Source: Rivularia sp. MS3 (lineage in GTDB: Bacteria; Cyanobacteriota; Cyanobacteriia; Cyanobacteriales; Nostocaceae). From it: DNA of 52,529 nucleotides. The stretch spans positions 1-52,529 of the forward strand of contig JAHCMI010000065.1 of NCBI GenBank assembly GCA_019192545.1, in the 5' to 3' direction. The notes below the pieces were generated by a model that was not told where the DNA came from, searched no databases, and saw nothing but the letters and a program-made list of their open reading frames with translations. The translations under genes and the position numbers were made by a program. Shown in pieces: positions 5,452-24,509 of this stretch (position 1 is the first letter of the stretch; each line of letters starts with the position of its first letter).

Positions 5452-5466
5452 TGATAATCGTTTTCA
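5452..5466. promoter_or_regulatory. Zur-like box between cobW-like gene and hisI
   Basis: TGATAATCGTTTTCA matches the 7-1-7 palindrome TGATAATnATTATCA in the whole left half and in five of seven right-half positions. It lies 25 bp before the hisI start and 122 bp before the leftward CobW-like gene, so it could repress both. Confidence 0.6.
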
Positions 5467-5490
5467 GCTAGATTTAGAAATAAAATTAAG

Positions 5491-5976
5491 ATGAATTTAA
5501 AATTTAGTAATCGCACTTCAATCGAACAAGTAGAAGAAGGTCTAGAACTCGCTCCCAAATTTGATTGCAACGGTTTGATACCAGTAGTGACCACAGATGC
5601 AAACACTGGGGAAGTGTTGATGCAAGGCTACATGAATCAGGATGCATTAGTTAAAACAATTGAAACTGGTGAAGCCCATTATTATAGTCGCAGTCGTCAA
5701 CAGCTATGGCATAAAGGTCAATCAAGCGGATTGGTACAGAAAGTTAAGCAGTTATTGATTGATGATGACCAAGACTGTATTTGGATGCGGGTTGAAGTTG
5801 CTGGTTCTGGAGCAAGTTGCCATGTTGGTTATCGTTCTTGTTTTTATCGTAGTATTCCTGTAGGGAAAGATGTTGTATCTTCCGAGCAACCACTAAGATT
5901 AACTTTTACCGAAACCGAAAAAACCTTTGACCCCAAGACAGTTTACGGGGATGCACCCAATCCAACACAACTTTAA
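5491..5976 (+). CDS. hisI: Phosphoribosyl-AMP cyclohydrolase
   Basis: A stand-alone HisI of 161 residues, without a fused HisE domain. It catalyses the third step of histidine synthesis, opening the adenine ring of phosphoribosyl-AMP, in the cytoplasm. The signature HKGQSSG, the metal-binding acidic run IDDDQDC and the following ASCHVGYRSC are present, so the three cysteines that bind zinc in the family are all kept. A Zur-like box lies directly upstream, which suggests that this copy is induced when zinc is short. It may be a second copy dedicated to that condition, but the window cannot show whether another hisI exists. It ends 1 bp before the convergent M23 gene. Confidence 0.9.
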   Translation: MNLKFSNRTSIEQVEEGLELAPKFDCNGLIPVVTTDANTGEVLMQGYMNQDALVKTIETGEAHYYSRSRQQLWHKGQSSGLVQKVKQLLIDDDQDCIWMRVEVAGSGASCHVGYRSCFYRSIPVGKDVVSSEQPLRLTFTETEKTFDPKTVYGDAPNPTQL

Positions 5977-5977
5977 T

Positions 5978-6710
5978 TTATCCTCGTGATGGTAAATAAG
6001 CGATGGGATTAACAGCCCTCTTTCCGGTCGGGTGAATTTCAAAATGCAAGTGAGGACCCGTACTAAAACCAGTACTACCCATATGAGCAATCATTTGACC
6101 TTGGTTCACTTTTCGACCAAGTTTAACAAAGTGCCTGTGATTATGGGCATAACGAGTTAAACTACCGTCGAGATGACGAATATCAATTATCTTCCCATAA
6201 CCTCTTTGTCTACCTTCAAATGTTACGACTCCACCTGCTGCTGCAACTATTGGTGTTCCAGTTTTGTTAGCGATATCAATACCTCTGTGCATTCGACCCC
6301 AGCGCATACCATAGCCTGAAGTTAAAACTCCTTTTGCTGGCCAAATATAAGCAATTTTTGTATTATCCAAAGATGGTGGAAGGGTATTTTGCTCAATTGG
6401 TTGGGGAAGATATTTTTCGATAATTGCGCTTAGGTGGTAAAGGTTGTCTTGTAAAAACTTTCTCGCTTGACTCTACTGGTTCTGCTGAAGCAGTTTGGTT
6501 ACTTTGTCCAAGAAATAAAATGCCAACATTTACGATGGACATTGCTACAGCAATTGTTATAAAATTTGTCTGTGTTTTTCGGTAGTTTTTCAATAGTTTA
6601 TTTAAACGAAACACCGAGACATCAGCATTCCTTTGGGATAAAGTCTTTGCCGTCTTGATTGATATAGACTTCAAGAATAGCCTCCAGGCTTGAATGTATG
6701 AGGAAAACAA
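5978..6710 (-). pseudogene. M23 (LytM-type) peptidase gene split by a frameshift
   Basis: Two reading frames together make one ordinary gene. The upstream frame (6393-6710, starting at 6710) encodes a charged N-terminus, one membrane or signal segment (FITIAVAMSIVNVGILFL) and a linker rich in P, K and R. The downstream frame (about 5978-6450) encodes the peptidase, with HRGID, YAHNH and HLHFE zinc-site motifs. The downstream frame has no ATG before the domain but stays open back into the linker to about 6450, so one lost or gained base near 6420-6450 explains the break. It could be a real disruption, a sequencing error or a programmed shift. A strong Zur/Fur-like palindrome lies just upstream. 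Confidence 0.75.
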
Positions 6711-6726
6711 ACGTTTGTTATCTATT

Positions 6727-6747
6727 TGAGAATGATAATCATTCTCA
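6727..6747. promoter_or_regulatory. Perfect Zur/Fur-type palindrome before the M23 gene
   Basis: GAGAATGATAATCATTCTC (6728-6746) is a perfect 9-1-9 inverted repeat, extended by one more pair on each side. It lies 17 bp before the start of the leftward M23 gene. It is the most symmetrical box of the window and belongs to the GAGAAT/ATTCTC subtype. Confidence 0.75.
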
Positions 6748-6880
6748 TGCGTTTGGTCAAGGCTATTCTAGATACAATTTACTTCCTTCCCGCTGTAAAA
6801 TTGCCTATAAAAATTTTTCCCTCCCTCAGTCAACATCTGTAATCTTCGAGCGGTTGGAGGAGTAGTACTGGCATCTCGCC

Positions 6881-6960
6881 CGTTCTTCCCATTCCCCAAG
6901 GTGACTCCTAAGCAGGTTCTCCCGGTTTCGCTGCTTTCCACAAGGGAAAATCAGATAGTT
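6881..6960 (-). pseudogene. Fragment of cysS
   Basis: Positions 6891-6960 align without gaps to 8501-8570 inside the intact cysS, with 7 differences in 70 by my count; the match weakens from 6890 back to 6881. Read leftward in the cysS frame it gives SDFPLWKAAKPGEPA, then a stop, then ESPWG, the same segment as in the real enzyme. Similarity stops abruptly on both sides. It is a non-functional duplicate or the last trace of a second cysS, in the promoter region of the zur-like gene. Confidence 0.85.
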
Positions 6961-7007: not shown

Positions 7008-7532
7008 ATGTATAGTGCAAATTCTCTGAAGGCAGAACTCAATGCAAAAGGGTGGCGATTAACACCACAGCGTGAAGTCATTTTACAGATATTTCAAAAT
7101 TTACCAAGAGGAAAACATTTAAGTGCAGACGACTTAAGTAAATTGCTTGAAAAGCGCGGGGAAGAAATTAGTTTATCAACGATTTATCGAACTTTAAAGT
7201 TAATGACACGAATGGGACTATTACGAGAGTTAGAATTAGCAGAAATACACAAACATTATGAACTTAATACAACTTCCCCCAATCATCACCATCATATTGT
7301 TTGCGCTCAATGTAATATGACAATTGAGTTTGATAATTCAACTATTCTCAAGCAAGCTATCAAGCAAGTTGAAAAATCTCATTTAGAATTGATTGATTGT
7401 CAGTTAACTATTTATGCAGTTTGTCCAGAAGCTATAAGAAAAGGTTTTCCTGCTATTATGTCTGAAAATTGGGCTTGTTCTCGTGCGAAAAATGCAAAAG
7501 ATAAGTTGGAACAAGACTTCCTAAGTAATTAG
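7008..7532 (+). CDS. zur: Fur-family regulator, Zur type
   Basis: A winged-helix Fur-family protein of 174 residues. The DNA-binding part holds WRLTPQRE and SLSTIYRTLKLM. It continues with the H-H-H-H run (93-96) and a CxxC (C99, C102), as in cyanobacterial Zur. It should repress zinc-uptake genes when loaded with zinc, and its place among Zur-type boxes, folE, hemB and a zinc importer supports that. The second structural CxxC expected near the end is not seen: C139 is followed by P-E-A, and the next cysteine is C157 in a C-terminal extension of about 30 residues. C157 might replace the lost ligand. It is therefore either Zur itself in a variant form or a Zur paralogue. Confidence 0.8.
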   Translation: MYSANSLKAELNAKGWRLTPQREVILQIFQNLPRGKHLSADDLSKLLEKRGEEISLSTIYRTLKLMTRMGLLRELELAEIHKHYELNTTSPNHHHHIVCAQCNMTIEFDNSTILKQAIKQVEKSHLELIDCQLTIYAVCPEAIRKGFPAIMSENWACSRAKNAKDKLEQDFLSN

Positions 7533-7653: not shown

Positions 7654-9111
7654 TTATTCCCGATACCAGCGAGTTTCCCCATTAGATTGATCGATTAAAT
7701 TGATTCCTACGGCTTGTAATCGATTGCGAATAGAGTCGGATAAATCAAAGTTACGATTTTGACGTGCATCTTTCCTTTGCTCAATTAAAGCTGCAATTTC
7801 TGCATTACTAATTACTTCTGATGGGTTTTTATTTTCTGCTGGGGATAAAATCTCAAGTCCAAAAACCTCTGCTAATGTCACTAAAGTTTGCCACATTTGC
7901 TTTAACTTTTCTGGATGTTTTTCAGTATTACCTTGATGGGTGATGATATTAGCATTCCGACGCAGTTCTTTGGCTAATTCAAATAATACAGCTAACCCCC
8001 CTGGTGTATTAAAATCATCATTCATTGCTGTTTTAAAGCTGTTAATCTCAGAATTTTGCAATTCAGTTTCTGGATTTAAATTTGCTTCATCCCATCCCAA
8101 TTTTTCGCCATACTGATGTCGAAATAACAAACCAGTTTTGAGAGTTTCCCAAGAATTTTGAGCGGAAGAAATAGCATCTTCTGTAAAGTCCAAAGGCTTG
8201 CGGTAATGACCTTGCAGTACAAATAATCTGATAACCATTGGGTCGATTGGTCGGTCAAGCAATTCTCGAATGGTCGTAAAATTACCTAGAGACTTGGACA
8301 TTTTTTCACCATTCACAGTCACCATACCGTTATGCATCCAGTAATTAGCAAGTGGTTTACCCGTGACTACTTCTGATTGAGCAATTTCATTTTCATGATG
8401 GGGAAATACCAAATCACCACCACCACCATGAATATCAATGGTTTCCCCCAAATTAGCACGAATCATTGCCGAACATTCAACGTGCCATCCCGGTCTTCCG
8501 ATTCCCCAAGGTGACTCCCAAAAGGGTTCTCCCGGTTTTGCTGCTTTCCACAAGGCAAAATCAGATGGTTTATGTTTGTTTCGAGATAAGTCTTCTAAAT
8601 CAATACCACTTGCCCCAGCTTGCATATCTTCTAATTGCTTGCCGGAAAGTTTGCCATATTCAGAAAAGTTGTCTGTTTTGTAGTAAACATCTCCATTTAC
8701 CGCATAAGCGTAGTCTTTTCGTTCTAATTCTGCAATCAACTGATGAATAGGGGTGATATTTTCAGTTACACGGGGATACGAGGATGCATCAATGACGTTT
8801 AAGCGACGGATATCTTCAAAATAGGCTTGAATGTACTTTTGGGAAACCTCTTCCATTGATGTATTTTCAGCATTAGCGCGATTGAGGATTTTGTCATCAA
8901 TGTCGGTAAAATTTTGCATGTAACGCACTTCATAACCGCTAAATTTTAAATAGCGTCGCACCGTATCCCAAGCAATATAAGACCTTGCATGACCCAGGTG
9001 ACAATAATCATACACCGTGACACCACAGCAGTACATTTTGACCTTTCCTGGCTCTAAAGGTTGAAAGGTTTCTTTACGACGGGTGAGGGTATTGTATATT
9101 GTTAGGCTCAT
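7654..9111 (-). CDS. cysS: Cysteinyl-tRNA synthetase
   Basis: A class I synthetase charging tRNA-Cys in the cytoplasm. HLGHAR (the HIGH motif) and KMSKS are present. The zinc site that selects cysteine appears complete: the Cys in MYCCGVTVYD, the Cys in WHVECSAM, and the His and Glu in FPHHENE. The ATG at 9111 (MSLTIYN) is preferred over the in-frame start four codons upstream because the family begins there. It lies 56 bp downstream of the COG0523 gene on the same strand and probably shares the folE transcript. Zinc-dependent synthetase copies in Zur regulons are known from other bacteria; whether this is the only cysS of the cell cannot be seen. Confidence 0.93.
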   Translation of the reverse strand: MSLTIYNTLTRRKETFQPLEPGKVKMYCCGVTVYDYCHLGHARSYIAWDTVRRYLKFSGYEVRYMQNFTDIDDKILNRANAENTSMEEVSQKYIQAYFEDIRRLNVIDASSYPRVTENITPIHQLIAELERKDYAYAVNGDVYYKTDNFSEYGKLSGKQLEDMQAGASGIDLEDLSRNKHKPSDFALWKAAKPGEPFWESPWGIGRPGWHVECSAMIRANLGETIDIHGGGGDLVFPHHENEIAQSEVVTGKPLANYWMHNGMVTVNGEKMSKSLGNFTTIRELLDRPIDPMVIRLFVLQGHYRKPLDFTEDAISSAQNSWETLKTGLLFRHQYGEKLGWDEANLNPETELQNSEINSFKTAMNDDFNTPGGLAVLFELAKELRRNANIITHQGNTEKHPEKLKQMWQTLVTLAEVFGLEILSPAENKNPSEVISNAEIAALIEQRKDARQNRNFDLSDSIRNRLQAVGINLIDQSNGETRWYRE

Positions 9112-9167
9112 GTCAATTATCAATTATTCACCCGTAGGGTGTGGATCATCAATTTTGTTAATCAAGT

Positions 9168-9773
9168 TTAGGAGGAAAAGGAAATTACAGTAGAAACACT
9201 CTTAGATGCTTCTACTGTTGAAGACACGCGAAAATCATTGGTGTTAACAACTCCTTGAGTAGCATTAAATATTGGCTGCCATTTTACTCTACGAATATGT
9301 TTATAACATTTATTTATTTGCTCATCAGTTGCTCTGTCGCAGTGATTAACTATTATTTTATCGGCAAAAAATATTTGATTAGTAACTAAATAGCACTCTG
9401 CATCTGTAGGTGGATAGTTAGCAGCATTTATTATTGTAATCACTTCTTTCAAAAAAATACTTCCTGGGGAAAAAGATTGTCGAATTGTTCTGATAACTGG
9501 AATTGGGTCGGTTTCGTGACTAGCTTCGATAAACAATTGCTGACATTCAATTTTTTCGCTTTTTCTATCAATAAGTAAATCTTTAATTAACTGTTTTAAA
9601 TCCTTGAGTCCACTACAGCAAATACAACCACCACCAAGTTCTTCAGAACCACTGTGTATATGTTCTACAGTAGTTCCAATTTGATTACTCAGATGTTGAA
9701 TTAAACTAGTTTTTCCACTACCTGCAAAACCCAAAACTAGGGTAGCAGGCAATGGTGAAGTTTTGTTTCCCAT
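9168..9773 (-). CDS. COG0523 (CobW-like) GTPase with GCxCC metal motif, short form
   Basis: Walker A GFAGSGKT lies at about residues 15-22, GGCICC (the GCxCC metal motif of COG0523) at about 48-53, and N-H-C-D occupies the NKxD position. At 201 residues it is much shorter than the usual 300-400 because the C-terminal CobW domain is absent. Proteins of this family couple GTP hydrolysis to metal transfer, and several are Zur-controlled zinc chaperones. It lies 21 bp from folE and 56 bp from cysS on the same strand, so its client may be one of those zinc enzymes. That assignment is an inference. Confidence 0.85.
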   Translation of the reverse strand: MGNKTSPLPATLVLGFAGSGKTSLIQHLSNQIGTTVEHIHSGSEELGGGCICCSGLKDLKQLIKDLLIDRKSEKIECQQLFIEASHETDPIPVIRTIRQSFSPGSIFLKEVITIINAANYPPTDAECYLVTNQIFFADKIIVNHCDRATDEQINKCYKHIRRVKWQPIFNATQGVVNTNDFRVSSTVEASKSVSTVISFSS

Positions 9774-9794: not shown

Positions 9795-10445
9795 TTAATG
9801 AAAATTAGCCTTATGTCGAATCAAATTCATGAATTCCTCGCGGGTTCTTGCATCTTCTGCGAATACACCACGCATTGCGCTGGTGACAGTCCATGAACCA
9901 GGTTTTTGTACACCACGCATTACCATACACATATGACTAGCTTCTACAACTACTGCTACACCTTGAGGTTTAAGTAAACCTTGGAGCGCATCAGCTATTT
10001 GTAGAGTCAATCTTTCCTGTACCTGTAAACGTCTTGCGTACATCTCACATATGCGGGCAATTTTTGATAATCCAATGACTTTACCATTAGGAATATAAGC
10101 GACATGAGCGCGACCAAGGACTGGTAAAATATGGTGTTCGCAGGAACTAAAAATATCAATATCTCTTACCAATACCATTTCATTGGCATCTTCTGTAAAC
10201 ACTGCACCATTTAACAGTTCGTCCAAAGATTCATGGTAGCCTTTGGTCAAAAACTGTAAGGCTTTTACAACTCTTTTAGGAGTATCTTTAAGTCCTTCTC
10301 TATCTGGGTCTTCTCCTAATCCAAGTAGCAAAGTTCTCACAGCTTGCATCATTTCTTCATCCGTAACGTTTGGTTTATTTTGTGTAGATAAAGATGAAAC
10401 AACTTCCTCAGCAGAATTTAATTCGGGACGAAAAGATAAAGTCAT
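9795..10445 (-). CDS. folE: GTP cyclohydrolase I (type IA)
   Basis: A 216-residue enzyme converting GTP to 7,8-dihydroneopterin triphosphate, the first step of folate and pterin synthesis. The zinc ligands are visible as Cys and His in [12 protein letters not shown] and Cys in [11 protein letters not shown], so this is the zinc-dependent IA type, not the zinc-independent FolE2 often found in Zur regulons. It is the first gene of a probable folE - COG0523 - cysS transcript. Two Zur/Fur-like boxes lie upstream (10468 and 10633). A dedicated GTPase metallochaperone directly behind it is consistent with metallating this enzyme when zinc is scarce. Confidence 0.93.
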
Positions 10446-10482: not shown

Positions 10483-10632
10483 CTGATTAGTTATTAGACG
10501 CTATAAAATTTCACCCCGGAGATTAGACAAATAAAATCTAATTGGAGGGTGTATTTGCGGTCTTGCAAATAACTATTTAACGAGCAATAATTACTAACGT
10601 TATTTCAATTATAGTAAAAAATTGTTAAGTTG

Positions 10633-10649
10633 AGAATGAATCTCATTCT
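10633..10649. promoter_or_regulatory. Second Zur/Fur-like palindrome before folE
   Basis: AGAATGA, ATC, TCATTCT is a perfect 7-3-7 inverted repeat of the same GAGAAT/ATTCTC subtype as the box at 6727. It lies about 190 bp before folE and about 105 bp after the hemB stop. Confidence 0.5.
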
Positions 10650-10754: not shown

Positions 10755-11804
<1,050 letters not shown>

Positions 11805-13974: not shown

Positions 13975-14367
13975 TTACGGTAAACGATTCCGCAGCTTAC
14001 GTAAACAGTTTATCGATGCAACACAATCGCAACCAAACATATTTACAGCAGCGTCACTTTCTTCATCTGTAACGCCAAGCAACGCATCCTGATTATTTAA
14101 ATCGGCAGCATCAATTTGTGGATTACCTTTTTTTAAATGAGATAATTGGTTCGCATTTGCACAGAAAAATGTACCGAATTTTGCATGTCTCACACAAGCC
14201 TTTTGGCTTTCTCCGGAAACTGGTGTAACGTTAGCATCGGAACGTTTTACTGGTTGAACTTTCTTAGCCGTTTCGTTAGCTACGGCTATTTTTCCAGTCA
14301 TTAAGAGTGAACCTAGAGAAATAAAAGCTAGGGGTTTTCTTGGTAAATTCGCGAGTAACTTTTTCAC
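13975..14367 (-). CDS. Small exported Cys-containing protein of unknown function
   Basis: I do not recognise the family. The 130-residue protein has a basic N-terminus and a hydrophobic segment (about residues 12-27) ending in AVA-N, a typical signal peptide. The mature part has five cysteines: ACVRH, FFCANA, and C-D-C followed by a further C in GCDCVASINC near the end. This is compatible with disulfides or metal binding outside the cytoplasm. A Zur/Fur-like palindrome lies about 60 bp before the ATG, so a role in metal starvation is a reasonable guess and no more. A signal peptide, a single clean frame and its own promoter box argue that the gene is real. Confidence 0.65.
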   Translation of the reverse strand: MKKLLANLPRKPLAFISLGSLLMTGKIAVANETAKKVQPVKRSDANVTPVSGESQKACVRHAKFGTFFCANANQLSHLKKGNPQIDAADLNNQDALLGVTDEESDAAVNMFGCDCVASINCLRKLRNRLP

Positions 14368-14425
14368 TTAATTTTCCTACAAATACAGAGATTGCTATTA
14401 TCAATCAGTTATAAACTCAATTGAC

Positions 14426-14438
14426 GAGAATCATTCTC
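14426..14438. promoter_or_regulatory. Zur/Fur-like palindrome before the exported Cys protein gene
   Basis: GAGAAT-C-ATTCTC is a perfect 6-1-6 inverted repeat of the GAGAAT/ATTCTC subtype. It lies 59 bp upstream of the gene starting at 14367 on the minus strand. Confidence 0.55.
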
Positions 14439-14648
14439 ATTCTGTTCCTTGAATTAATTAGGTGTAACACATTATTTGTTTTTTGGCGATATATAAATCG
14501 TGTATTTTTTTTGAAAAATGTTACCAGACAAACTGTTTTATTTCTCGAAGAGTTTATGTCAAGGTTATGTCAATGTTGTGAAGTTTTTTTGAGAATGCTT
14601 ACTCAAACTTTTTCATCATATGGTGTTAATTATAATTCAAAATAAGCG

Positions 14649-14768: not shown

Positions 14769-15254
14769 TTAATCACTATTTAATAATCTTCCTGGCTTTT
14801 GGTCTTTTTTACAACGTGTAACCGTGAGTTTAGTCGCGTCAAATTTTGACTGATTTTGACCGTGATTTCGATTGAAATTAACTAAAGGTTCGTGGTTACA
14901 TTTAGCATCACAAACAGTAACTTTCTTAGCTAAAAAGACTATTTCTTGTAGCTTTTTTTCGGCAAAACTTAAAACGTTACGTAAAGCTTCAGGAAGTTGC
15001 GTTTCTTGCGTTGCGTCGTAGGGTACAAATTGTAAAGAAGCAGAAGGCTGCACTTCAAATTCCCTGAATATATCTTTGATAGTTTCCAACTTGGAAATAA
15101 CTTCTTCAGGACGAATTTGCCAAATATTTTTTGCATAGATTATTCCTATTCCCAAAGGTTTATCTTTAGGAAAACCAAAAGCCTCCAACGCTTTCTTTAC
15201 CTCCCGGTTTTTACCAATGCGGGGATAACCTAAAGTCGCAGTTTTAATTTTCAT
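14769..15254 (-). pseudogene. Collapsed metE (cobalamin-independent methionine synthase) remnant
   Basis: The frame starts like MetE (TATLGYPRIGKNREVKKALEAF) but jumps at once to a segment that in full-length MetE lies roughly 300 residues in (PLGIGIIYAKNIWQIRPEEV, then SASLQFVPYDATQETQLPEA and LRNVLSFAEKKLQEI). The whole C-terminal catalytic domain with its zinc-binding His/Cys residues is missing; the last 50 residues are unrelated. At about 160 codons against roughly 750, it cannot be a methionine synthase. It follows the riboswitch-controlled DUF1636 gene on the same strand. MetE is classically repressed by B12 riboswitches, so this is probably what the switch once controlled. The ATG at 15254 is preferred to the TTG three codons earlier. 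Confidence 0.85.
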
Positions 15255-15494
15255 TTTTTCCAATTTATGAAGGTGGAAGATGCGTGAGTTCTATATCAGA
15301 TATAGGTTTTGTTGAGTTAAATTTCTCTCTAAATCTCTTTCCTAAGAAATAGACTTTGAAGCTTAAACTTTTTAGAAATCAAACCAAATCTCTAAAATCG
15401 AAATATTTGCAAACGGATTTGGGCAGTCGTGCAAAATAAGCACAACTGCAACTTAATTACAACAAGATTTTGCTGCAATTAAATTCTCAAATCC

Positions 15495-15920: not shown

Positions 15921-15956
15921 CTATACCTCGTAGATTTAGCTATGTTTTTCTTGATT

Positions 15957-16081
15957 TGTCGGCGGGCATTCTGACTTACAAGGTGGCAATTTTTCCTTGC
16001 TTACAGCTGCGGGACAGCGCCAGATTTACACTGGACTTTCCCCGTTACCTCTAATGGCTGCTCCCCATTAGAACCGAAGTT
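15957..16081 (-). promoter_or_regulatory. Cobalamin (B12) riboswitch
   Basis: Read on the minus strand, the region holds the B12-box core GTCCCGCAGCTGTAAGC (16015-15999), preceded by GGGGAAAGTCCAGTGTAAAT with the standard spacing and followed by AAGTCAGAATGCCCGCC. A peripheral stem CTAATGG/CCATTAG lies at 16071-16051. These are the conserved elements of the cobalamin riboswitch in the right order. It sits directly upstream of the DUF1636 gene. The expression platform (terminator or ribosome-site sequestration) is not resolved. Confidence 0.93.
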
Positions 16082-16602
16082 GAATTTTATATTAACACAA
16101 AATGTTTGCATACATTTAAATCTTGCCATCAAAATTAACTAAGCTTTTGATATAATTTTTCATTCAAACTATTGCTGGTTCATTTTGTAAGCGAACTAAT
16201 TTGGAAAAACTTACTCTATGCGTTAATGATATGAAAATGCACCTGATTATATATATTAGATATATTAGATATCGATTTAGATAAATTACCTTTAATCAAC
16301 GATGACAATGTTAATGTCAATGTGAGTGTTACTGTTAATGTCAATGTTAAGCTTTTAATTAATATTTTCTATTAATTAAGTTGACAAAATTTTCCTTGAT
16401 AACTTCTTGTTTTTTATATGGTAATTTAAGTATATTTAGACCATAAAAAGGAGTAGGAAACGTAAGTGAGCTTAACTGGAATGACCTACTTCCGAGCAAA
16501 TTTATCCTGCTAGTTAAAAGAAATTTGTCAAATTAATCTAAAAACTCGATGTATCAGCTTATCCTCTAACAACCTTCTCAAGAGTCAATTACGGCAATAT
16601 CG
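16082..16602. other. Non-coding stretch with a hexamer tandem repeat
   Basis: No gene is supported in these 520 bp between the riboswitch and the zinc-ribbon promoter region. At 16307-16348 there are seven degenerate 6-bp units of the form AATGTT/AATGTC. Elsewhere only AT-rich sequence is seen. Confidence 0.6.
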
Positions 16603-16617
16603 TGATAATGATTATCG
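16603..16617. promoter_or_regulatory. Distal Zur box of the zinc-ribbon gene
   Basis: TGATAATGATTATCG matches the palindrome in 14 of 15 positions, the same sequence as the hemB box. It lies 163 bp before the ATG at 16780. Confidence 0.7.
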
Positions 16618-16736
16618 AATATAAGTAGTTCATGTTACATTATTTTTTGTATAATTCTTTTAAACACTGGCTTCATAGGCTTTTAGGAGCTTTTATTCTT
16701 CAAGTTTTTCTACTTTTATAATTATTTAGCTAAAAT

Positions 16737-16751
16737 TGATTATCATTATCA
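16737..16751. promoter_or_regulatory. Proximal Zur box of the zinc-ribbon gene
   Basis: TGATTATCATTATCA differs from the consensus TGATAATGATTATCA at two positions. It lies 28 bp before the ATG at 16780; together with the box at 16603 it makes a two-site promoter. Confidence 0.7.
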
Positions 16752-16779: not shown

Positions 16780-16977
16780 ATGCCAAGCAAAAAAGTTCAC
16801 GTCCGGGAATATAATGTCAAAGCACACGACCGTATTATCCATACAAGGGTTTATAACTTCATTTGTCAATACTGTCGAGAGATATCGGAACGAGAGACTT
16901 ATGCTACCGGATGTCCTAAGTATGGGGAAAAATGCAATGGAGTTGCAAGTAAGTGCTTGCGATGTCAAAAGCAATAG
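16780..16977 (+). CDS. Small six-cysteine zinc-ribbon-like protein
   Basis: A 65-residue basic protein. Residues 1-26 are rich in H, K and R (H7, H16, H21). Then come C29-x2-C32, C45, C52 and C59-x2-C62, enough for a four-Cys zinc site with two extra thiols. It has no signal peptide. I do not recognise a named family. Two Zur-type boxes lie in front and an intrinsic terminator 27 bp behind, so it is a single-gene transcription unit that looks strongly zinc-responsive. It could be a cytoplasmic zinc store or buffer, or a nucleic-acid-binding zinc ribbon. The clean promoter-terminator arrangement makes the small frame credible. Confidence 0.75.
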   Translation: MPSKKVHVREYNVKAHDRIIHTRVYNFICQYCREISERETYATGCPKYGEKCNGVASKCLRCQKQ

Positions 16978-17285: not shown

Positions 17286-18854
17286 CTAGAAAGTAAAGGT
17301 AGTTCTTAAAGTACCAATTACTACATCATCATTATTTTCGTTGTGGTCTGGTGCAGTTAACCAAATCACACCGGGGGTAATAGCGATATTGTCATTAATC
17401 TTATATTGATAGAATGCTTCGATGTGGTAGGAAGTATCTGGATCTTCATTCAAACCATCAATACTAGAATCAGTAAGTCTGGGTTCCATACCGAAGATAA
17501 CTCCAGCCAAATTACCTTTCTTACCAAAATCGGGTAATCCTAAAGTAACTGCCCAGTTCCAAATCTCCGCGCTTCCACGGTCTGGGAAAGCTGCGGATGT
17601 ACTTAAATTACGAGCATTGGTATAACCAGCCCAACCACCTAAAACTAGGTTCTTACTGATTCCTAATGATGCTTGGATACCATAGGAATCGGCACTAAAA
17701 GGAGTATCTGCAAGGGTAGAAATATTATCCAACGGTGAAACTGTATTAAAGTTAGAAGCATTACTACCAGCACCATTGAACTGGTTATAAGAATTGATAT
17801 AAGTTAAACCAACCTTAAAGCGATCGCTTGGTGCAAATGTGAGTTGTGCTAATGCACCGTAGGAACCGTTGAATAAACCATTATCAGTACCCGAGTCGCT
17901 TGCAGAGCCAGCTAAATAAGCCAAACTCAAAGATAAATTCTTGCCGAACTCCTGGGTAACTCCTACACCAGCACCATCCATTGCTCCATAGATGGGGTTA
18001 CGAGTTCCAAAGCTAGATAAAGCTCCTTCAGTACCATCACCATCAAATAAGTTTACTGTATCTACAACATCATCTGCTGCACCTGCATTTGCTATAGCTA
18101 TAACGTTAGTACTCTCAGTTAAAGGAAAACTGTACCAAAGTGCATCTAATTCAACATCGTTATCTCCGCTCTCACCAGCAAAGGCTAAACTTCCTTCAGG
18201 TGTACCAATATCGGGACCAACTATATTATTGCTTTGCAGTCTGGTGTATAGGGTGTCTTTTCCTGTGAAGCTGGTAGCAAAGTTGATTCTTGCTCTTGCA
18301 CCCAATGTCGTATTTTCGTCGTCTGTATCCCCTTCAAATACATCTGTAATTCCCACCACGACTTCACCTTCGAGTTTAGAAGTTGTGGAAAATTGATTTG
18401 TTTCTAACTGAGCAGTACGTGCTTCTACAGCGTCTACTCTTCCTCTAAGGGTTGCTAATTCCGCTGAAAACTCTGATTGCAGTCTTTGTAGAGTTGCAAG
18501 GTCTTCTTTATTAACTAGGTCTGCGGTTGCGGTTGCAATCAACTCATTTACTCTATCTAAACAAGCATTCAAACCCGCAGCAAACTCGTATCTCGTTAAT
18601 GCTCGATTACCTCGAAAAGTACTGTTTGGATATCCTGCAATACACCCGTAGCGCTCTACCAAAGACTGTAATGCTTGAAATGCCCAATCTGTAGGCTGTA
18701 CATCAGAAAACTGCGAAACAGAAGTAACCTGTTCTAAGGTTTCTTCTTGGGTTTGAATTTGTGCAACAGCAGTGTCATTTACTAATAATAATGTTGCAAA
18801 CGGAAAGCTTAAGAGGGGACTAACTACTAAAAACTTACACAAACTTTTTTTCAT
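17286..18854 (-). CDS. SLH-domain porin, cyanobacterial iron-uptake-porin type
   Basis: The order is signal peptide (about residues 1-32), SLH domain (SQFSDVQPTDWAFQALQSLV ... YEFAAGLNACLDRVNELIA), a short coiled coil (ATLQRLQSEFSAELATLRGRV), then a beta-barrel with alternating polar and apolar residues ending in the outer-membrane signature T-T-F-T-F. The SLH part anchors to the cell wall and the barrel forms an outer-membrane channel for small solutes or inorganic ions. The ATG at 18854 is preferred to the upstream TTG because it starts a canonical leader (MKKSLCKF) and has GAGAAG before it. A paralogue with the same architecture is at 39177-40958. No Zur box is visible upstream, although it stands next to zinc genes. 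Confidence 0.92.
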   Translation of the reverse strand: MKKSLCKFLVVSPLLSFPFATLLLVNDTAVAQIQTQEETLEQVTSVSQFSDVQPTDWAFQALQSLVERYGCIAGYPNSTFRGNRALTRYEFAAGLNACLDRVNELIATATADLVNKEDLATLQRLQSEFSAELATLRGRVDAVEARTAQLETNQFSTTSKLEGEVVVGITDVFEGDTDDENTTLGARARINFATSFTGKDTLYTRLQSNNIVGPDIGTPEGSLAFAGESGDNDVELDALWYSFPLTESTNVIAIANAGAADDVVDTVNLFDGDGTEGALSSFGTRNPIYGAMDGAGVGVTQEFGKNLSLSLAYLAGSASDSGTDNGLFNGSYGALAQLTFAPSDRFKVGLTYINSYNQFNGAGSNASNFNTVSPLDNISTLADTPFSADSYGIQASLGISKNLVLGGWAGYTNARNLSTSAAFPDRGSAEIWNWAVTLGLPDFGKKGNLAGVIFGMEPRLTDSSIDGLNEDPDTSYHIEAFYQYKINDNIAITPGVIWLTAPDHNENNDDVVIGTLRTTFTF

Positions 18855-18866
18855 GATTCTTCTCAA

Positions 18867-19183: not shown

Positions 19184-20251
19184 TTACTTAGCAAAAGCTG
19201 TATATTGACCTCCCAAACCATCTACAATAGCTTTAGTATTAGCAATCAACATTTCCTGATAACTATCAGCATCAGTACCTTGTTCGCCCAAGCCATCAGC
19301 ATATAGTCTTTCCTGAGAAACTTTTACGTTGGCTTCTTTTCCAAGTCTTTCGATTAGTTTTGGACTATGGGTACTTTCAGCAAATATTGTCGGTACGTTC
19401 TCTTGCTTAATTTCTTTAGATAGTTCGGCGATTCTTGCTGCTGATGGTTCTGCTTCAGTACTAAAACCTTCTATAGCACCTTCGTAGTTAATATTGTATG
19501 CCTGGGTATAGTAGCTTAAAGCATCGTGAGTGGTAACTAATTTGCGTTGATTTGCAGGAATAGTAGCCACATTCTTTTTAATCCAGCTATCTATTTCTTT
19601 AATTTCCCCAGTTACTTTTTGGGCATTAGCTGCATACAATTGAGTGTTATCTGGAGCAACTTTCTCTAAATTACTACGGATAGCTTCAACCATTTGTACG
19701 CCATTTTGAGCATCGTGCCATACATGGGGGTCTGGTGCTTTTTCTTCTGAGTGTTTCTCTTCTTTTTCGTGGTCGTGGTCGTCGTGCTTGTCTTCAGAGT
19801 GTCCGGAATGACCGTGGTCGTGCTCTTCCCCCATAATTGGCTTAGGAACTGCAACTTCATGAATCGCTACTTTCGGAGCCTGATTGCTGCTTGCTTGCAC
19901 TAATTTGATAATACCGGGTTCAAAATCATAACCACCGTACAAAACTAAATCAGCCCTCTCGATTGCTTTGCGGTCATCTGGTTTTGGCTGGTATGTGTGG
20001 GGGTCCTGACCTGCATCTACTAAACACTTCAAGTCAACTGTTTGAGCAGCAACTTGTTTCGTGAGGTCACATATGACGCTAGTAGTAGCAACAACTAAGG
20101 GACGCTCCCCTGTCGCAGTACTGCTGGTGTTTACGGCAGAATTTTCTTCCGTACCAGAATTAGAATTAACTTGCTCGTTAGCACCACAGCCAATTAAACC
20201 AAGAGCCAAAGTTAATGCCGTAATTGCGCTTAGAGGTAATTTTCTAAACAT
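19184..20251 (-). CDS. znuA: Zinc ABC transporter substrate-binding protein
   Basis: A 355-residue lipoprotein: lipobox LIGC with the cysteine at residue 22, then the cluster A-1/ZnuA fold. The expected metal-binding histidines are visible in D-P-H-T-Y, D-P-H-V-W-H and T-T-H-D-A. Between the first two lies a His/Asp/Glu-rich loop (about residues 142-172) characteristic of zinc-specific members. It captures periplasmic zinc and delivers it to ZnuB/ZnuC. It is divergent from znuC, and two Zur boxes lie in the 113-bp gap. Confidence 0.95.
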   Translation of the reverse strand: MFRKLPLSAITALTLALGLIGCGANEQVNSNSGTEENSAVNTSSTATGERPLVVATTSVICDLTKQVAAQTVDLKCLVDAGQDPHTYQPKPDDRKAIERADLVLYGGYDFEPGIIKLVQASSNQAPKVAIHEVAVPKPIMGEEHDHGHSGHSEDKHDDHDHEKEEKHSEEKAPDPHVWHDAQNGVQMVEAIRSNLEKVAPDNTQLYAANAQKVTGEIKEIDSWIKKNVATIPANQRKLVTTHDALSYYTQAYNINYEGAIEGFSTEAEPSAARIAELSKEIKQENVPTIFAESTHSPKLIERLGKEANVKVSQERLYADGLGEQGTDADSYQEMLIANTKAIVDGLGGQYTAFAK

Positions 20252-20277: not shown

Positions 20278-20292
20278 TGATAATCGTTATCA
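20278..20292. promoter_or_regulatory. Zur box on the znuA side of the znuA/znuC gap
   Basis: TGATAATCGTTATCA matches the palindrome with one substitution and lies 27 bp before the znuA start. Confidence 0.85.
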
Positions 20293-20335
20293 TACAGTAG
20301 CGACTGCTCCAAGGGAAGTAGATTTGTAACATAAA

Positions 20336-20350
20336 CAATTATCATTATCA
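20336..20350. promoter_or_regulatory. Zur box on the znuC side of the znuA/znuC gap
   Basis: CAATTATCATTATCA keeps the right half ATTATCA and most of the left. It ends 15 bp before the znuC GTG; the ribosome site CAGGAGA follows at once. Confidence 0.7.
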
Positions 20351-20364
20351 TACAGGAGAAATCA

Positions 20365-21099
20365 GTGCTAGAAGTAGAGCATTTGGATGTAGATTACCGG
20401 GGTGTAGTGGCTGTTGATGATATCAGTTTTCGCGTTTTACCCGGACAAATTATTGGTGTAATCGGTCCAAATGGCGCTGGTAAAAGCACTTTGGTCAAAG
20501 CGATACTGGGTTTAATTCCTACAAGCAATGGAGTTGTTAAATTTTGTAATCGTCCGATCAAAAAGCAATTAAGGTCAGTTGCTTACGTACCTCAAAGAAC
20601 TCAAGTAGATTGGGATTATCCGATTACGGTACAGAAAGTGGTAATGATGGCTCGTACTGTTAGCACGGGTTGGTTTCGTAAACCGAGTCAGAAGTCTAAA
20701 GAAATAGTTAAATCTGCACTGCATAGAGTCGGGATGTGGGAATTTCGTTCCCGCCAAATAGGTGAGTTATCTGGGGGACAGCAGCAGCGGGTATTTTTAG
20801 CTAGAGCGCTAGCACAGCAAGCTAATTTATTTTTCTTTGACGAGCCGTTTGTTGGGATTGATAAAACTACTGAAGATATCATGTTTGATGTTTTTCATGA
20901 ATTAAAAAGAGATGGCAAAATTTTGATTTTAATTACCCATGACTTAGGTGAAACTTTAGCTCAATGTGACTCTTTATTATTGTTAAACAAACATATTATC
21001 GCTGATGGTTCTATGAAAGAAGTTGTTACAACTGAAAATTTACAGCGTGCTTATGGCAATAATATTTTATTTTTGAATCGACAAGAAAAATCAGCTTAA
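20365..21099 (+). CDS. znuC: Zinc ABC transporter ATP-binding protein
   Basis: A 244-residue ATPase with Walker A GPNGAGKST, Q-loop PQRTQVDWDYP, signature LSGGQQQRV, Walker B LFFFDEP and the switch histidine in LITHD. It powers zinc import with ZnuA and ZnuB at the cytoplasmic membrane. GTG is the start: it directly follows a good AGGAGA ribosome site and gives the standard MLEVEHL opening. znuB follows on the same strand after a 90-bp gap filled with short repeats. Confidence 0.95.
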   Translation: MLEVEHLDVDYRGVVAVDDISFRVLPGQIIGVIGPNGAGKSTLVKAILGLIPTSNGVVKFCNRPIKKQLRSVAYVPQRTQVDWDYPITVQKVVMMARTVSTGWFRKPSQKSKEIVKSALHRVGMWEFRSRQIGELSGGQQQRVFLARALAQQANLFFFDEPFVGIDKTTEDIMFDVFHELKRDGKILILITHDLGETLAQCDSLLLLNKHIIADGSMKEVVTTENLQRAYGNNILFLNRQEKSA

Positions 21100-21189
21100 T
21101 CAGTGAACAGTGAACAGTTATCAATTATCAATTACCAGTTATCAACTAACTACTAACTACTAACTACTAACCATTAACAATTACCAATA
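21100..21189. repeat. Heptamer-type tandem repeats between znuC and znuB
   Basis: Units such as CAGTGAA/CAGTTAT and later ACTACTA/ACTAACT follow each other across the whole intercistronic gap. This is the short tandemly repeated repetitive (STRR) type common in filamentous cyanobacteria. Confidence 0.7.
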
Positions 21190-22086
21190 ATGTTGAATTT
21201 GCTTTTGGAACCGCTTAGTTTTGGATTCATGCGAGATGCGCTAGTTGTTGCTGCTAGCTTGGGAATTCTTTGTTCTGTGGTTGGTTCTTATCTGATTGTA
21301 CAGCGTCAGGGAATACTCGGTGATGTGATTGCTCATGCTGTGTTACCTGGAATTGCGATCGCAATATTTCTTGGCATTGATATTTTTTTGGGTGCGTTTG
21401 TTTGCGGGACTTTCAGCACTTTTGTAATTAATTGGATAGAATCCCAGTCTCGTGTCAAAATTGATGCTGCAATGGCTTTGGTATTTTCAGGTTTTTTAGC
21501 GTTGGGTATTATGCTAATTAGCGTACTCAAAAGTAAAGTCGATTTGCATCACTTTTTATTTGGGAATATTTTAGGGGTGACAACAGAAGATGTTTTTAGA
21601 ACTTTAATAATTACAGTTGTTACCTTAGTTTTAGTTATAGTTTGTTATAAAGAATTGCTATTTTACACCTTTGACCCATCAGGGGCACAAGCGAGCGGAT
21701 TACCAGTAAATATTATTAAGTTTGGATTGACAGCAGCAATTACGTTAACAATTATTGCCAGTATGCAAGCTGTGGGAGTTGTATTAGTAATTTCTTTATT
21801 AATTGGTCCTGGAGTTACGGCTTATTTATTAGTAAAAGAGCTACATCAAATGATGATTCTAGGTTCTGCAATCGGTATGATTGGTAGCGTTGGCGGTTTA
21901 TATCTTAGCTATTATCAAAACGTGCCTTCCGGTGCATCTATTGTATTATTTATTTGCGGTTTATTTTTATTAGCATTATTATTCAGTCCTTCACAAGGTA
22001 TATTAACTCGTCCGAAGGCTAGGAAGATAAAACGTTCCGAAAGGGTTCTGCACGAAGTTATAGAAGTGAAGGGCAGTAGAAAGTAG
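21190..22086 (+). CDS. znuB: Zinc ABC transporter permease
   Basis: A 298-residue membrane protein of the ABC-3 family with about eight hydrophobic helices. The family's G-D-V-I-A-H-A-V-L-P-G coupling segment is visible at about residues 43-53 (LGDVIAHAVLPG). It forms the import channel for zinc delivered by ZnuA. It is the second gene of the znuC-znuB unit. The C-terminus is extended by about 25 charged residues beyond the last helix. Confidence 0.95.
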   Translation: MLNLLLEPLSFGFMRDALVVAASLGILCSVVGSYLIVQRQGILGDVIAHAVLPGIAIAIFLGIDIFLGAFVCGTFSTFVINWIESQSRVKIDAAMALVFSGFLALGIMLISVLKSKVDLHHFLFGNILGVTTEDVFRTLIITVVTLVLVIVCYKELLFYTFDPSGAQASGLPVNIIKFGLTAAITLTIIASMQAVGVVLVISLLIGPGVTAYLLVKELHQMMILGSAIGMIGSVGGLYLSYYQNVPSGASIVLFICGLFLLALLFSPSQGILTRPKARKIKRSERVLHEVIEVKGSRK

Positions 22087-22274: not shown

Positions 22275-22973
22275 CTAGGATTTTGAAAAGTTAATTTTTC
22301 TTTGATAAATTAGCAAAGCTAAACCTACAATACCAACTCCTAACACAGATGTAGGTTCGGGTATCTTTGTTGCAACTAAACGCTGTCCGACTTCATCCCC
22401 AGCAGTAGGATTGTTAAGTAATTCCTTTGTGGTTACATTAAAAAATGCTACATCTAAATGAGAACGAAATCCTCGTGGTAAGTCGGGGTACTCTCCTAAC
22501 CAGTCAGTCAGGTGAACGTGGGGGTTAGGACTCGGTGGAAGGTTTTCACTATCACCATCAAAAAGCGCTCTGGGTACTGACCAAAAGTTCAATCCCTCTT
22601 CTCTTGCTTCTCCAATACTAATTCCATCCGATGCATCCCATAATCCTGACTGCAAAATCTTCCCAGTAGCAGTATCGAAGTTGAAATTGAATCCCTCACT
22701 CAGATGATCATCCTTAAACTCTGCAATGAGATTTCCATTAGGATCTAAAAAGGCAATATCAAATGACTCTAAATCGTTTTTACGAACAATACCGTCTATA
22801 GGTACTAAGGTTTCATCGTAGCTAAATTTACCTTTGGCTTCGTAGCCCAATGTCTGACCAGTCCAGTCCATATTAAAGGCGATCGCCTCTGCTTTCCTTA
22901 CATTTATGAAGCCCAAGCTCAAGAGTACACCTACGGTAGCGCTGATTTTAGCAAACTTGCGGTAAATATTCAT
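22275..22973 (-). CDS. PEP-CTERM exported protein
   Basis: A 232-residue protein with a signal peptide (about residues 10-32) and a C-terminal IPEPTSVLGVGIVGLALLIY-QRK, the PEP-CTERM sorting signal recognised by exosortase. The central part is polar with a beta-rich look and contains no motif I recognise. Such proteins are processed at the membrane and exported, often into the extracellular matrix. The ATG at 22973 is chosen over the TTG four codons upstream. A Zur/Fur-like half-palindrome lies about 80 bp upstream, so metal control is possible. It is divergent from the flavoprotein gene. Confidence 0.85.
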   Translation of the reverse strand: MNIYRKFAKISATVGVLLSLGFINVRKAEAIAFNMDWTGQTLGYEAKGKFSYDETLVPIDGIVRKNDLESFDIAFLDPNGNLIAEFKDDHLSEGFNFNFDTATGKILQSGLWDASDGISIGEAREEGLNFWSVPRALFDGDSENLPPSPNPHVHLTDWLGEYPDLPRGFRSHLDVAFFNVTTKELLNNPTAGDEVGQRLVATKIPEPTSVLGVGIVGLALLIYQRKINFSKS

Positions 22974-23054
22974 GATTCGCGTCAATCAAATCCTTGTGGA
23001 ACTGTTATTACTGACTTTAGGTTGCATCCCCTAATATCTTTATTACTTTAACAA

Positions 23055-23072
23055 TAATCATAATCATTCTCA
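23055..23072. promoter_or_regulatory. Zur/Fur-like box before the PEP-CTERM gene
   Basis: TAATCATAATCATTCTCA reads GAGAATGATTATGATTA on the other strand, a full half-site of the GAGAATGAT type plus a weaker second half. It lies about 80 bp before the minus-strand start at 22973. Confidence 0.5.
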
Positions 23073-23098
23073 AGATGATGTCAGAACTTGAAGAAATA

Positions 23099-23223
23099 TC
23101 TCAGAGGATGTTTTGAAAGCTATAAATGATACTCGAAACTTTTAACCTCCCCTTTTTAAGGGAGGGGAAGGGGGATCGTCCGAGAATTGTGATAAAACTA
23201 TACTTTTCAAACATCCTCTGAGA
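23099..23223. mobile_element. MITE-like element
   Basis: The 21-bp ends TCTCAGAGGATGTTTTGAAAG (23099-23119) and its near-complement CTTTTCAAACATCCTCTGAGA (23203-23223) differ by one shift and enclose about 83 bp without coding capacity, including CCCCTTTTTAAGGGAGGGG-like sequence. The end structure suggests a non-autonomous transposon. It sits between two metal-type boxes in a divergent promoter region. Confidence 0.8.
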
Positions 23224-23237
23224 CTTACCTGCTATTA

Positions 23238-23252
23238 TGATAACGATTATCA
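23238..23252. promoter_or_regulatory. Zur box before the flavoprotein gene
   Basis: TGATAACGATTATCA matches TGATAATnATTATCA with one mismatch. It lies 15 bp before the ATG at 23268. Confidence 0.75.
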
Positions 23253-23267
23253 TTATATTGAAATTTT

Positions 23268-24509
23268 ATGCAAAGTAATCCACCACACCTTTTGAAAAAA
23301 GTCGATTTAGCAATTATTGGTGCTGGACCTCATGCTCTGACTTTAATTACCCATCTGCTACAGAAACGTCAGAAAATTCGTTCAAAAATTGCGGTATTTG
23401 ACCCCAGTGGAAAATGGATGAGTCAGTGGGAGCATCAATTTGCAGCCTTGGAAATACCTCATTTACGTTCTCCTGCGGTTCACCATCCAGATCCAAATCC
23501 TTTTGCATTACGTAAGTTTGCCGAGTCTCGCTCGAATGAGTTTTTCCCTCCCTATGATTTACCGGGAACTCGGTTATTTAATGATTTTTGTCAGGATGTA
23601 ATTCGTCGTTGGGATTTAGACAATATAGTTCTAGGTGAAAAGATTACTCGAATTCAACCTTTAAATAATCCTTTTGGATCTCAGTTTCGTTTGTGGTTGG
23701 GTTCGGGAAAATCAATATTAGCTAGTCGGGTAGTATTAGCAACTGGTAGCAGTCAATTACAAATACCTGATTGGACAAGTCAAATTAACCAAAATTATCC
23801 CGAAGATAAACTTTGTCATTCTCAATCAGTAGATTTACGCAAACTATATTTAGCTGGTGAAAAAGTATTAATTATTGGTGGAGGGTTAACAAGCGGACAT
23901 TTAGCGGTAGGTGCAGTGTCTCGCGGAGCCGAAGTGCAGATATCCATACGACGACAGTTACAGGAAAAGATATTTGATGCGGATGCTGGTTGGCTAGGAC
24001 CAAAATATTTAAAAGGATTTTTTGCAGAACCAGATTTTGAAAAGCGTTTTGAAATGATTCAGCAAGCGCGAAATGGTGGTTCTATGACTCCTGCAATGGT
24101 AACGCGGTTAAGACGACAAGTGCATAATGATAAGCTGAAAATTCAGGAAAACATGCAAGTTGTTGGGGTTGAGTGGATAGATAATCAATGGTTGGTGAAA
24201 TTTACCGATGGTGAGCAAAAACAATTTCATCGCATTTGGTTATCTACAGGAACCCGTTTCGATGTCAACTGCGAACCTTTATTAAAGGAAGTTTTACAAG
24301 CTTATCCAATACCTGTAATCAATGGTTTTCCAGTTTTAGATAGTAATTTACGTTGGCGCGGTTGCTCATTATTCATTATGGGCGGGTTAGCGGCTTTACA
24401 AATCGGGCCAACGGCAAGAAATTTATCAGGTGCAAGAATGGCAAGTGATAAAATGCTCAAGGCGATTATTAAATCTAATGTAGTTCAACATCAACCTAAA
24501 ATTGCTTGA
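23268..24509 (+). CDS. FAD/NAD(P)-dependent oxidoreductase, possible N-hydroxylating monooxygenase relative
   Basis: A 413-residue protein with two dinucleotide-binding folds: GAGPHALTL at about residues 18-26 for FAD and GGGLTSGHLA at about residues 204-213 for NAD(P)H. L-A-T-G-S closes the first domain. The N-terminal W-M-S-Q-W-E-H and L-R-S-P-A-V-H-H-P-D segments resemble the IucD/SidA-type flavoproteins, but the protein is shorter. No siderophore biosynthesis genes lie nearby. The Zur box just upstream suggests induction in low zinc, so it might make or modify a zinc-binding small molecule, which is an untested idea. Another possibility is a thioredoxin-reductase-like enzyme of unknown substrate. 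Confidence 0.75.
   Translation: MQSNPPHLLKKVDLAIIGAGPHALTLITHLLQKRQKIRSKIAVFDPSGKWMSQWEHQFAALEIPHLRSPAVHHPDPNPFALRKFAESRSNEFFPPYDLPGTRLFNDFCQDVIRRWDLDNIVLGEKITRIQPLNNPFGSQFRLWLGSGKSILASRVVLATGSSQLQIPDWTSQINQNYPEDKLCHSQSVDLRKLYLAGEKVLIIGGGLTSGHLAVGAVSRGAEVQISIRRQLQEKIFDADAGWLGPKYLKGFFAEPDFEKRFEMIQQARNGGSMTPAMVTRLRRQVHNDKLKIQENMQVVGVEWIDNQWLVKFTDGEQKQFHRIWLSTGTRFDVNCEPLLKEVLQAYPIPVINGFPVLDSNLRWRGCSLFIMGGLAALQIGPTARNLSGARMASDKMLKAIIKSNVVQHQPKIA

Follow-up and report, generated by a model that had tools for sequence, protein, structure and literature searches.

Do the palindromes and zinc-related genes packed into positions 5452–24509 of contig C136 form one set that is switched on when zinc runs short? 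We analyzed the whole contig (the window, 52,529 bases) together with the 9.19 Mb genome to which it belongs, which is in 174 contigs (C-numbers below), with genomes of relatives (G-numbers) and with fetched loci (L-numbers). The organism appears to be a member of the Nostocales; one island gene has its closest named relatives in Mastigocoleus and Richelia records (85–88% identity). Judged from sequence comparison, the region is very probably (about 0.92) a Zur-repressed island of zinc-starvation genes in a cyanobacterium of the Nostocales.

Palindromes of the island and Zur-dependent promoters

The palindrome TGATAATnATTATCA, with up to three mismatches, was found 30 times in the window, compared with 8.5 ± 2.7 times in shuffled sequences. 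Across the genome it occurs at 33 places with one mismatch and at none perfectly. Six of these 33 fall within the 19,058 bases of the island, where 0.056 would be expected from the rest of the genome (107-fold, P = 4e-11); with up to two mismatches the figures are 10 of 252 vs. 0.50 expected (20-fold, P = 2e-10). The genome-wide total of 252 is not higher than that of a reversed-pattern control (271), and the motif excess is therefore local. Equal frequency of the boxes throughout the genome, which the initial annotation had named as fatal to its proposal, was not seen, and chance clustering of an AT-rich motif was rejected by the window shuffles and the genome-wide enrichment. The sequence GAGAATnATTCTC was also rejected as a separate motif class, since its 42 occurrences in the window (34.4 expected) indicate no enrichment.

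We trained a scoring matrix on boxes from this same window, which makes its in-window scores circular; the tests on plasmid pAQ7 and on hemB genes described below are not circular. It detected 11 sites scoring at least 12 in the island (Table 1) and one elsewhere in the window; a Markov control gave 0.36 per 20 kb. With a weaker site at 20336 (score 11.4) they make up the twelve palindromes first counted, spread over eight intergenic gaps in 19 kb. The gaps lie ahead of the genes that the initial annotation had listed, apart from its zur-like gene, which has no box of its own. A counterpart of the weaker site recurs between znuA and znuC in L056, L057, and L075, and between the genome's own second znuC and its traces of znuA (L071). 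Similarly, the folE box recurs as sites scoring 15–18 at 189–214 bp upstream (L052, L053, L056, and L073), and the zinc-ribbon gene is preceded by a site at 36–39 bp in L052, L053, L055, and L057 as well.

We applied the matrix to all 186,459 bases of pAQ7 from Picosynechococcus sp. PCC 7002. Two sites scored at least 16: the first ends 10 bp ahead of the annotated hemB-II start, and the second lies in the gap between a GTPase-like gene and a FAD oxidoreductase gene. The pAQ7 genes that are up in a zur mutant and upon treatment with TPEN are hemB-II, folE-II, G0131 (GTPase-like), and G0132 (FAD oxidoreductase) (PMC4628125; its locus names were paired to the pAQ7 record by product and order). 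Because both sites sit at transcripts derepressed in the zur mutant, we read the palindromes of the island as Zur boxes.

The hemB genes of relatives gave a second test. A site scoring at least 13 was present upstream of 15 of the 18 Asp-type genes and of none of the 20 Cys-type genes. Fifty-eight loci were scanned (some with the same gene twice, a few without hemB), and the 38 genes kept match one metal-site motif, differing around the motif; the genome's own Cys-type copy is included and hemB genes with another motif were dropped. The likely regulator is a 130-aa protein encoded on C87, whose best solved-chain matches are 7ne9 (1e-29) and Mycobacterium tuberculosis Zur/FurB (2o03, 3e-20). 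Of 41 genomes searched, 39 encode a Zur-type protein with 45–100% identity; G026 has a fragment of the gene, and the copy in G020 is broken. G012 carries, within its zinc cluster, a further Zur-type gene whose product is 58% identical to the C87 protein (contig C60, 17439–17801, within L061). In sum, the island has what a Zur regulon cluster should have: boxes above background, a motif that predicts zur-dependent promoters in PCC 7002, and znuABC, COG0523 genes, and zinc-enzyme paralogues together.

Several observations weigh against this reading. The training set of the matrix is the window's own boxes. In the island, dacB, the Rieske gene, and DUF1636-metE showed no strong box by the matrix, fur2 (the Fur-type gene) is likewise without a convincing one, and the site at 10468 is weak (score 6.2). 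Three of the 18 Asp-type hemB genes are unboxed, and among the hemB genes missed by the metal-site motif those of L070 and L092 are unboxed while that of L074 is boxed. Four weaker sites (12.0–14.6) were found on pAQ7, one of which (12.1) lies 35 bp ahead of an AraC-type gene beside iron-siderophore genes, and TPEN also brings about iron limitation (PMC4628125). Of the 27 near-perfect matches outside the island, those scoring at least 14 were inspected; just three of these are beside zinc genes, and five fall within reading frames. Another, a box-like site on contig C7 (L118, position 4841, score 17.7), stands 75 bp ahead of a gene for an ArsR-family regulator. Finally, the neighbours of fur2 in two other genomes (see below) may leave room for a role of Fur2 in zinc control.

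Zinc enzymes and the phosphoesterase operon

The low-zinc interpretation proposed at the outset is well supported, both by the promoter boxes, which were compared with the published zur-mutant transcriptome, and by the paralogues of the four enzymes it had named. Each of these has another copy elsewhere: full copies in the genome number two for hisI, three for folE, two for cysS, and two for hemB. The island HemB carries an Asp-type metal site vs. DTCLCEYTSHGHCG in the copy on C3. With its metal-site cysteines exchanged for Asp and a Cys-type copy elsewhere, it is, judged from its residues, a clear case of zinc-free replacement. FolE and cysteinyl-tRNA synthetase (CysRS) are of a different kind. 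All three FolE copies retain CEHH and the later Cys residues, and both CysRS copies retain the Cys, Cys, and His-His-Glu positions, which we take to be the zinc ligands of the two enzymes. FolE is thus type IA, as first noted; a zinc-independent FolE (type IB) and a zinc-independent CysRS were both rejected. In the island HisI, Asp occupies the place of the DCD-motif Cys of the C153 copy, with a Cys four residues on. This Cys-to-Asp change was seen in four of five compared sequences; the fifth (51% identical) retains Cys.

The order folE-cog0523-cysS is repeated in relatives (e.g., L051–L054 and L057), and the GTPase between the two enzyme genes has both the P-loop and the CxCC motif of COG0523 proteins. 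Its position, flanked by folE and cysS, fits a delivery of scarce zinc to the enzymes that retain their ligands. A precedent for a COG0523-FolE pair is ZagA-FolE of Bacillus subtilis (PMC10882993). A scan of the genome_contigs set with the short COG0523 protein gave four loci.

Boxed promoters were also found away from the island. On C134 (L071) a second znuCB, 82–87% identical, has two boxes and only traces of znuA alongside; on C22 (L117) a boxed group holds thrS2, a methyltransferase gene, and COG0523 genes with DUF1636 and an ArsR-type regulator gene. The programme is therefore not wholly in one place. The folE copy on C98 (89% identical) was rejected as a second zinc locus, since the 20 kb around it have neither a box scoring 14 nor any further gene of the island.

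A Pfam match at 6878–6958, between the M23 gene and fur2, was rejected as a repeat family. It is a decayed piece of cysS, and its three genome-wide matches are itself, the island cysS, and the C14 cysS. Three genomes have dead cysS pieces within their zinc islands (window, 6878–6958; L057, around 14300; L220, 13710–14015), and in Trichormus variabilis such a piece is annotated as a hypothetical protein adjoining the GTPase gene. This suggests that cysS2 is lost where thrS2 is present.

The two phosphoesterases that the initial annotation had grouped with the island lie just outside it, at 2788–4557. They belong, by arrangement, to a metallophosphoesterase (MPE) operon on the minus strand, in the order GTPase-like gene, MPE1, MPE2; the first gene of the operon starts at 5330 and adjoins the 5452 box. 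In an alignment to the solved metallophosphoesterase 3rqz, Cys8 of MPE1 takes the place of the first Asp, and Cys62-Trp63 replaces the GNHD-motif Asn-His; His10, Asp36, His122, His157, and His159 are retained. The residues of the set D-x-H, GD, GNH[ED], H, and GHxH are presumably metal ligands; as this set is incomplete in MPE1, with Cys8 and Cys62-Trp63 in 48 of 48 genes, MPE1 was rejected as a typical metallophosphoesterase.

No variation was seen at Cys8, Cys62, Trp63, Cys74, or Cys76, first in 38 of 38 aligned rows and then in 11 of 11 more. These correspond to 48 distinct genes (49 loci, with L068 and L165 being one place), which are a fetched subset of the 130 genomes with some match, in stretches of differing length. 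Position 8 is Asp in all nine distant phosphoesterases compared, which are the top of a longer list; near residue 62 their alignment has many gaps (three have Asn, two have Cys, and four have other letters or gaps), and the claim is limited to residue 8. All 33 aligned rows of MPE2, among which one gene appears twice, have Gly8 and Arg163-Ser164. Among the 48 distinct genes, the GTPase-like gene adjoins MPE1 in 47 and MPE2 follows it in 42. The GTPase-like gene at 4554–5330 was rejected as a COG0523 metallochaperone: GxxGxGK is present, and there is no CxCC and no PF02492 match. AlphaFold2 models of this CobW-like protein and of MPE1 (three sequences each) had a mean pLDDT of 40.5 and 42.2 and were not used. 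Literature searches on metallophosphoesterase with Zur, zinc, cyanobacteria, and zinc starvation gave no description of the operon among the matches listed.

Tentatively, we propose that the MPE operon is a hitherto undescribed module for zinc starvation in cyanobacteria. Its metallophosphoesterase fold would have been turned into a thiolate-rich metal site (Cys8 and Cys62, with the invariant Cys74 and Cys76), which, together with a partner GTPase, would hold zinc or pass it on, or would work as a phosphoesterase with another metal; possible clients are FolE, HisI, or CysRS. An ordinary phosphodiesterase operon that merely stands beside zinc genes would explain why MPE1 retains most His and Asp residues of the fold, and why just 20 of the 48 distinct operons have a box scoring at least 14 within 200 bp upstream. 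It would also suit PCC 7002, where the neighbouring phosphoesterase remnant does not respond to zur deletion (PMC4628125). That last datum is no test of the operon, since MPE1 is missing and MPE2 truncated in this strain; these losses may explain why no induced phosphoesterase was seen in the PCC 7002 study. We regard the ordinary operon as doubtful, given the invariant Cys8 and Cys62-Trp63 and the presence of another island gene in the fetched stretch around 39 of the 48 MPE1 genes. Because the usual catalytic His position is Trp, binding or passing on of zinc is somewhat likelier than ordinary phosphodiester cleavage.

The Fur-type gene and other genes of the island

The gene first called zur-like, here named fur2, is an extra Fur-type regulator; the Zur-type gene is the one on C87. 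The genome has five Fur-family genes, for whose products we assume the names FurA, PerR, and FurB by analogy with Anabaena; the fifth protein, encoded on C86 (L050), is without CxxC motifs. Fur2 is 63% identical to the genome's own FurA, its only relative there at 1e-20. Among solved chains it is closest to Fur (5nbc, 1e-19), with Zur/FurB (2o03) at 8e-14. In a tree of 38 sequences, Fur2 groups with other C-terminally extended Fur proteins in a clade supported at 99/97; the sole FurA-like match of many other cyanobacteria also belongs to this clade. The tree was made from 35 of 53 matches and three other Fur-family proteins of the genome, with the G003 fur2 (two stops) and fragments omitted, and it carried a long-branch warning. 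A zur gene in the island was rejected on the alignment, the tree, the solved-chain matches, and the Zur-type gene on C87.

Fur2 could still be a dedicated local regulator that shares the boxes with Zur or modulates Zur. In the region that recognizes DNA it hardly differs from FurA, and five genomes of the genus, out of eight, carry the gene, although stop codons break it in G003 and the contig ends within it in G007. It adjoins cysS in G007 and lies beside hisI in G002; the G027 orthologue stands after znuCB, in the same orientation, and that of G028 has DUF1636 and a COG0523 gene as neighbours. These neighbours in G027 and G028 made us rate a local regulator a little higher and brought our estimate for the Zur-repressed island from 0.93 to 0.92. 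We nevertheless consider such a role improbable. The island is present without fur2 in G005 and G006, many orthologues are the sole FurA-like match of their genome, and six of nine fetched stretches around such sole-match orthologues (L077–L085) have no island zinc genes. G027 and other genomes also carry a Zur-type gene. Moreover, fur2 has no convincing box: a sequence at 6957 scores 5.3, the nearest strong pair (6727/6733) ends 261 bp upstream and sits 17–37 bp ahead of the M23 reading frame, and no orthologue has a site scoring at least 12 within 400 bp.

It is very improbable that the palindromes are iron (Fur) boxes and that FurA or Fur2 controls the island as a cluster for iron limitation: TGATAATnATTATCA is presumably also a classical 7-1-7 Fur-family core, the island regulator is nested among FurA-like proteins, and the weak pAQ7 site is near iron-siderophore genes, yet the whole-plasmid scan, on which this alternative was rejected, placed sites scoring at least 16 solely at zur-dependent transcripts and none at the siderophore and iron-transport loci that pAQ7 also has, the island holds zinc enzymes and znuABC, and the boxes divide hemB genes into Asp-type and Cys-type.

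The 65-aa Cys-rich protein is a candidate new Zur-regulon product; a homologue is located after MPE2 on plasmid A of T. variabilis. PDB sequence searches with this protein and with the CobW-like protein gave no useful match. The pAQ7 homologue of the flavoprotein is the FAD oxidoreductase of PCC 7002, which is Zur-repressed (PMC4628125). The M23 gene is in two frames in the window and in one frame in G006. PEP-CTERM homologues were matched in 36 of 99 genomes and 25 loci were inspected, including the window's. The motif H-x2-9-H-[FY]-H of ZepA, a zinc motif in a PEP-CTERM exoprotein (PMC10957091), was absent from the window and from the 24 other loci, and the gene was rejected as ZepA; none of the 24 has a box scoring at least 13.

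DUF1636-metE is preceded by a cobalamin riboswitch, not by a Zur box. After DUF1636 and the riboswitch, metE is a 164-aa remnant with an internal loss (window, 14769–15263 and 15944–16092), and the MetE C-terminal domain PF01717 has no match in the genome. At the same place G007 (L058) has a metE frame of 780 aa. L058 and L075 have the riboswitch as well, and a cut-off part of it is present in L066.

Table 1. Genes and predicted Zur boxes of the island and of the adjoining MPE operon (positions in the window).
Feature	Coordinates	Strand	Basis or remark
MPE2, pseudo-phosphoesterase with degraded metallophosphoesterase metal motifs	2788..3531	-	Without Pfam/NCBIfam match
MPE1, calcineurin-like phosphoesterase, Cys8 and Cys62-Trp63 for Asp and Asn-His	3748..4557	-	PF12850, 1.8e-20; alignment to 3rqz
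CobW-like P-loop protein without CxCC, first gene of MPE operon	4554..5330	-	No Pfam family above cut-off
Zur box in divergent gap, MPE operon/hisI	5452..5466	.	Motif and matrix score
hisI paralogue, one zinc Cys to Asp	5491..5976	+	PF01502; second copy on C153
M23 peptidase gene, interrupted frame	5978..6710	-	PF01551; single frame in G006
Two overlapping Zur boxes (6727/6733) ahead of M23 gene	6727..6747	.	Motif and matrix score
fur2, extra Fur-type regulator with C-terminal extension, not Zur	7008..7532	+	Alignment, tree, solved chains
cysS paralogue, zinc ligands retained	7654..9123	-	PF01406; other copy on C14
Short COG0523 GTPase, 201 aa, GGCICC, between folE and cysS	9168..9773	-	PF02492, 8e-20
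folE, type IA, zinc ligands retained	9795..10445	-	PF01227; three genome copies
Zur box ~190 bp ahead of folE	10631..10645	.	Matrix score; recurs in relatives
hemB paralogue, Asp-type, without zinc cysteines	10755..11774	-	PF00490
Zur box directly ahead of hemB	11779..11793	.	Matrix score
exCys, Cys-containing protein of unknown family, predicted exported (judged by eye)	13975..14367	-	Without Pfam/NCBIfam match; homologues in L058, L066, L075
Zur-type box ahead of exCys	14425..14439	.	Box at the corresponding place in L058, none there in L066 and L075
Two Zur boxes (16603, 16737) ahead of small Cys protein	16603..16751	.	Matrix score
65-aa Cys-rich zinc-ribbon-like protein, no known family	16780..16977	+	Homologues in L052, L053, L055, L057, T. 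variabilis plasmid A
OprB/SLH porin, downstream of znuA, same strand	17286..18866	-	PF04966, PF00395
znuA	19184..20251	-	PF01297, 3.7e-83
Zur boxes between znuA and znuC: 20278 strong, 20336 weak but recurring	20278..20350	.	Matrix score
znuC and znuB	20365..22086	+	PF00005, PF00950
PEP-CTERM protein, not ZepA	22275..22985	-	TIGR02595
Zur-type box ahead of PEP-CTERM gene	23058..23072	.	Matrix score
Zur box ahead of flavoprotein gene	23238..23252	.	Recurs in L056, L057, L070, L074, L075
FAD/NAD(P)-binding flavoprotein	23268..24509	+	PF13454, PF13434

Known zinc clusters and the proposed zinc response

The initial annotation had set this combination of genes apart from known Zur regulons. It is not unprecedented: T. 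variabilis plasmid A, PCC 7002, and Cupriavidus already hold broad contiguous zinc clusters, and the region adds a large new example to them. Paralogues of HisI, HemB, CysRS, ThrRS, and amidase are known from proteobacterial Zur regulons (PMC2770081). In Anabaena sp. PCC 7120, Zur controls znuABC, COG0523 genes, hemB2, folE2, and a tRNA-synthetase paralogue (PMC6103462). That regulon is dispersed over six operons and six single units (PMC4628125) and includes thrS2 (PMC6103462), whereas many of the genes are contiguous here; cysS is in the window's island and thrS2 on contig C22. The pAQ7 cluster of PCC 7002 is alike in its boxed, zur-mutant-derepressed hemB-II, folE-II, GTPase-like, and FAD oxidoreductase genes (PMC4628125), but is smaller.

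Plasmid A of T. variabilis ATCC 29413 likewise groups znuA/C, hemB, hisI, GTPase-MPE1-MPE2, the zinc-ribbon protein, DUF1636, and a porin; znuA/C, hemB, thrS, DUF1636, GTPase, hisI, GTPase, MPE1, MPE2, and porin genes lie in ∼21 kb. It differs in its plasmid location and in having thrS instead of an intact cysS, of which a remnant is left, and no folE or flavoprotein match was found in the 30.8-kb stretch. In Cupriavidus metallidurans the cobW1 operon Op0317f_1 combines COG0523, FolE, CysS2, and other zinc-enzyme paralogues under Zur control (PMC10882993). This operon is proteobacterial, its FolE is type IB, and the available part of that paper names no HemB or MPE in it.

From the gene content we infer a response in which scarce zinc would be re-allocated. 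Zinc-loaded Zur, most likely the product of the C87 gene and not the island Fur, would sit on the promoter palindromes; as zinc falls, Zur would leave and the island would be expressed. Uptake would be raised by ZnuABC and probably by the porin, and one zinc enzyme would be replaced by the zinc-free Asp-type HemB. Extra or better-served copies of zinc enzymes would be supplied as FolE type IA and CysRS, in one operon with the small COG0523 GTPase, and as HisI with one ligand changed. The MPE operon, the flavoprotein, and the small Cys protein would be less understood additions. Zinc delivery by the GTPases and the part given to the MPE operon are putative.

The island would offer an unusually full and contiguous view of the cyanobacterial zinc-starvation response. 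In it, an enzyme that appears to be replaced (HemB) can be told apart from enzymes that appear to be kept on zinc and provided with a putative metal-delivery GTPase (FolE and CysRS). Next to it stands the MPE operon, which is conserved from Nostocales to small-genome cyanobacteria and encodes a phosphoesterase that has lost two standard metal-site residues to Cys.

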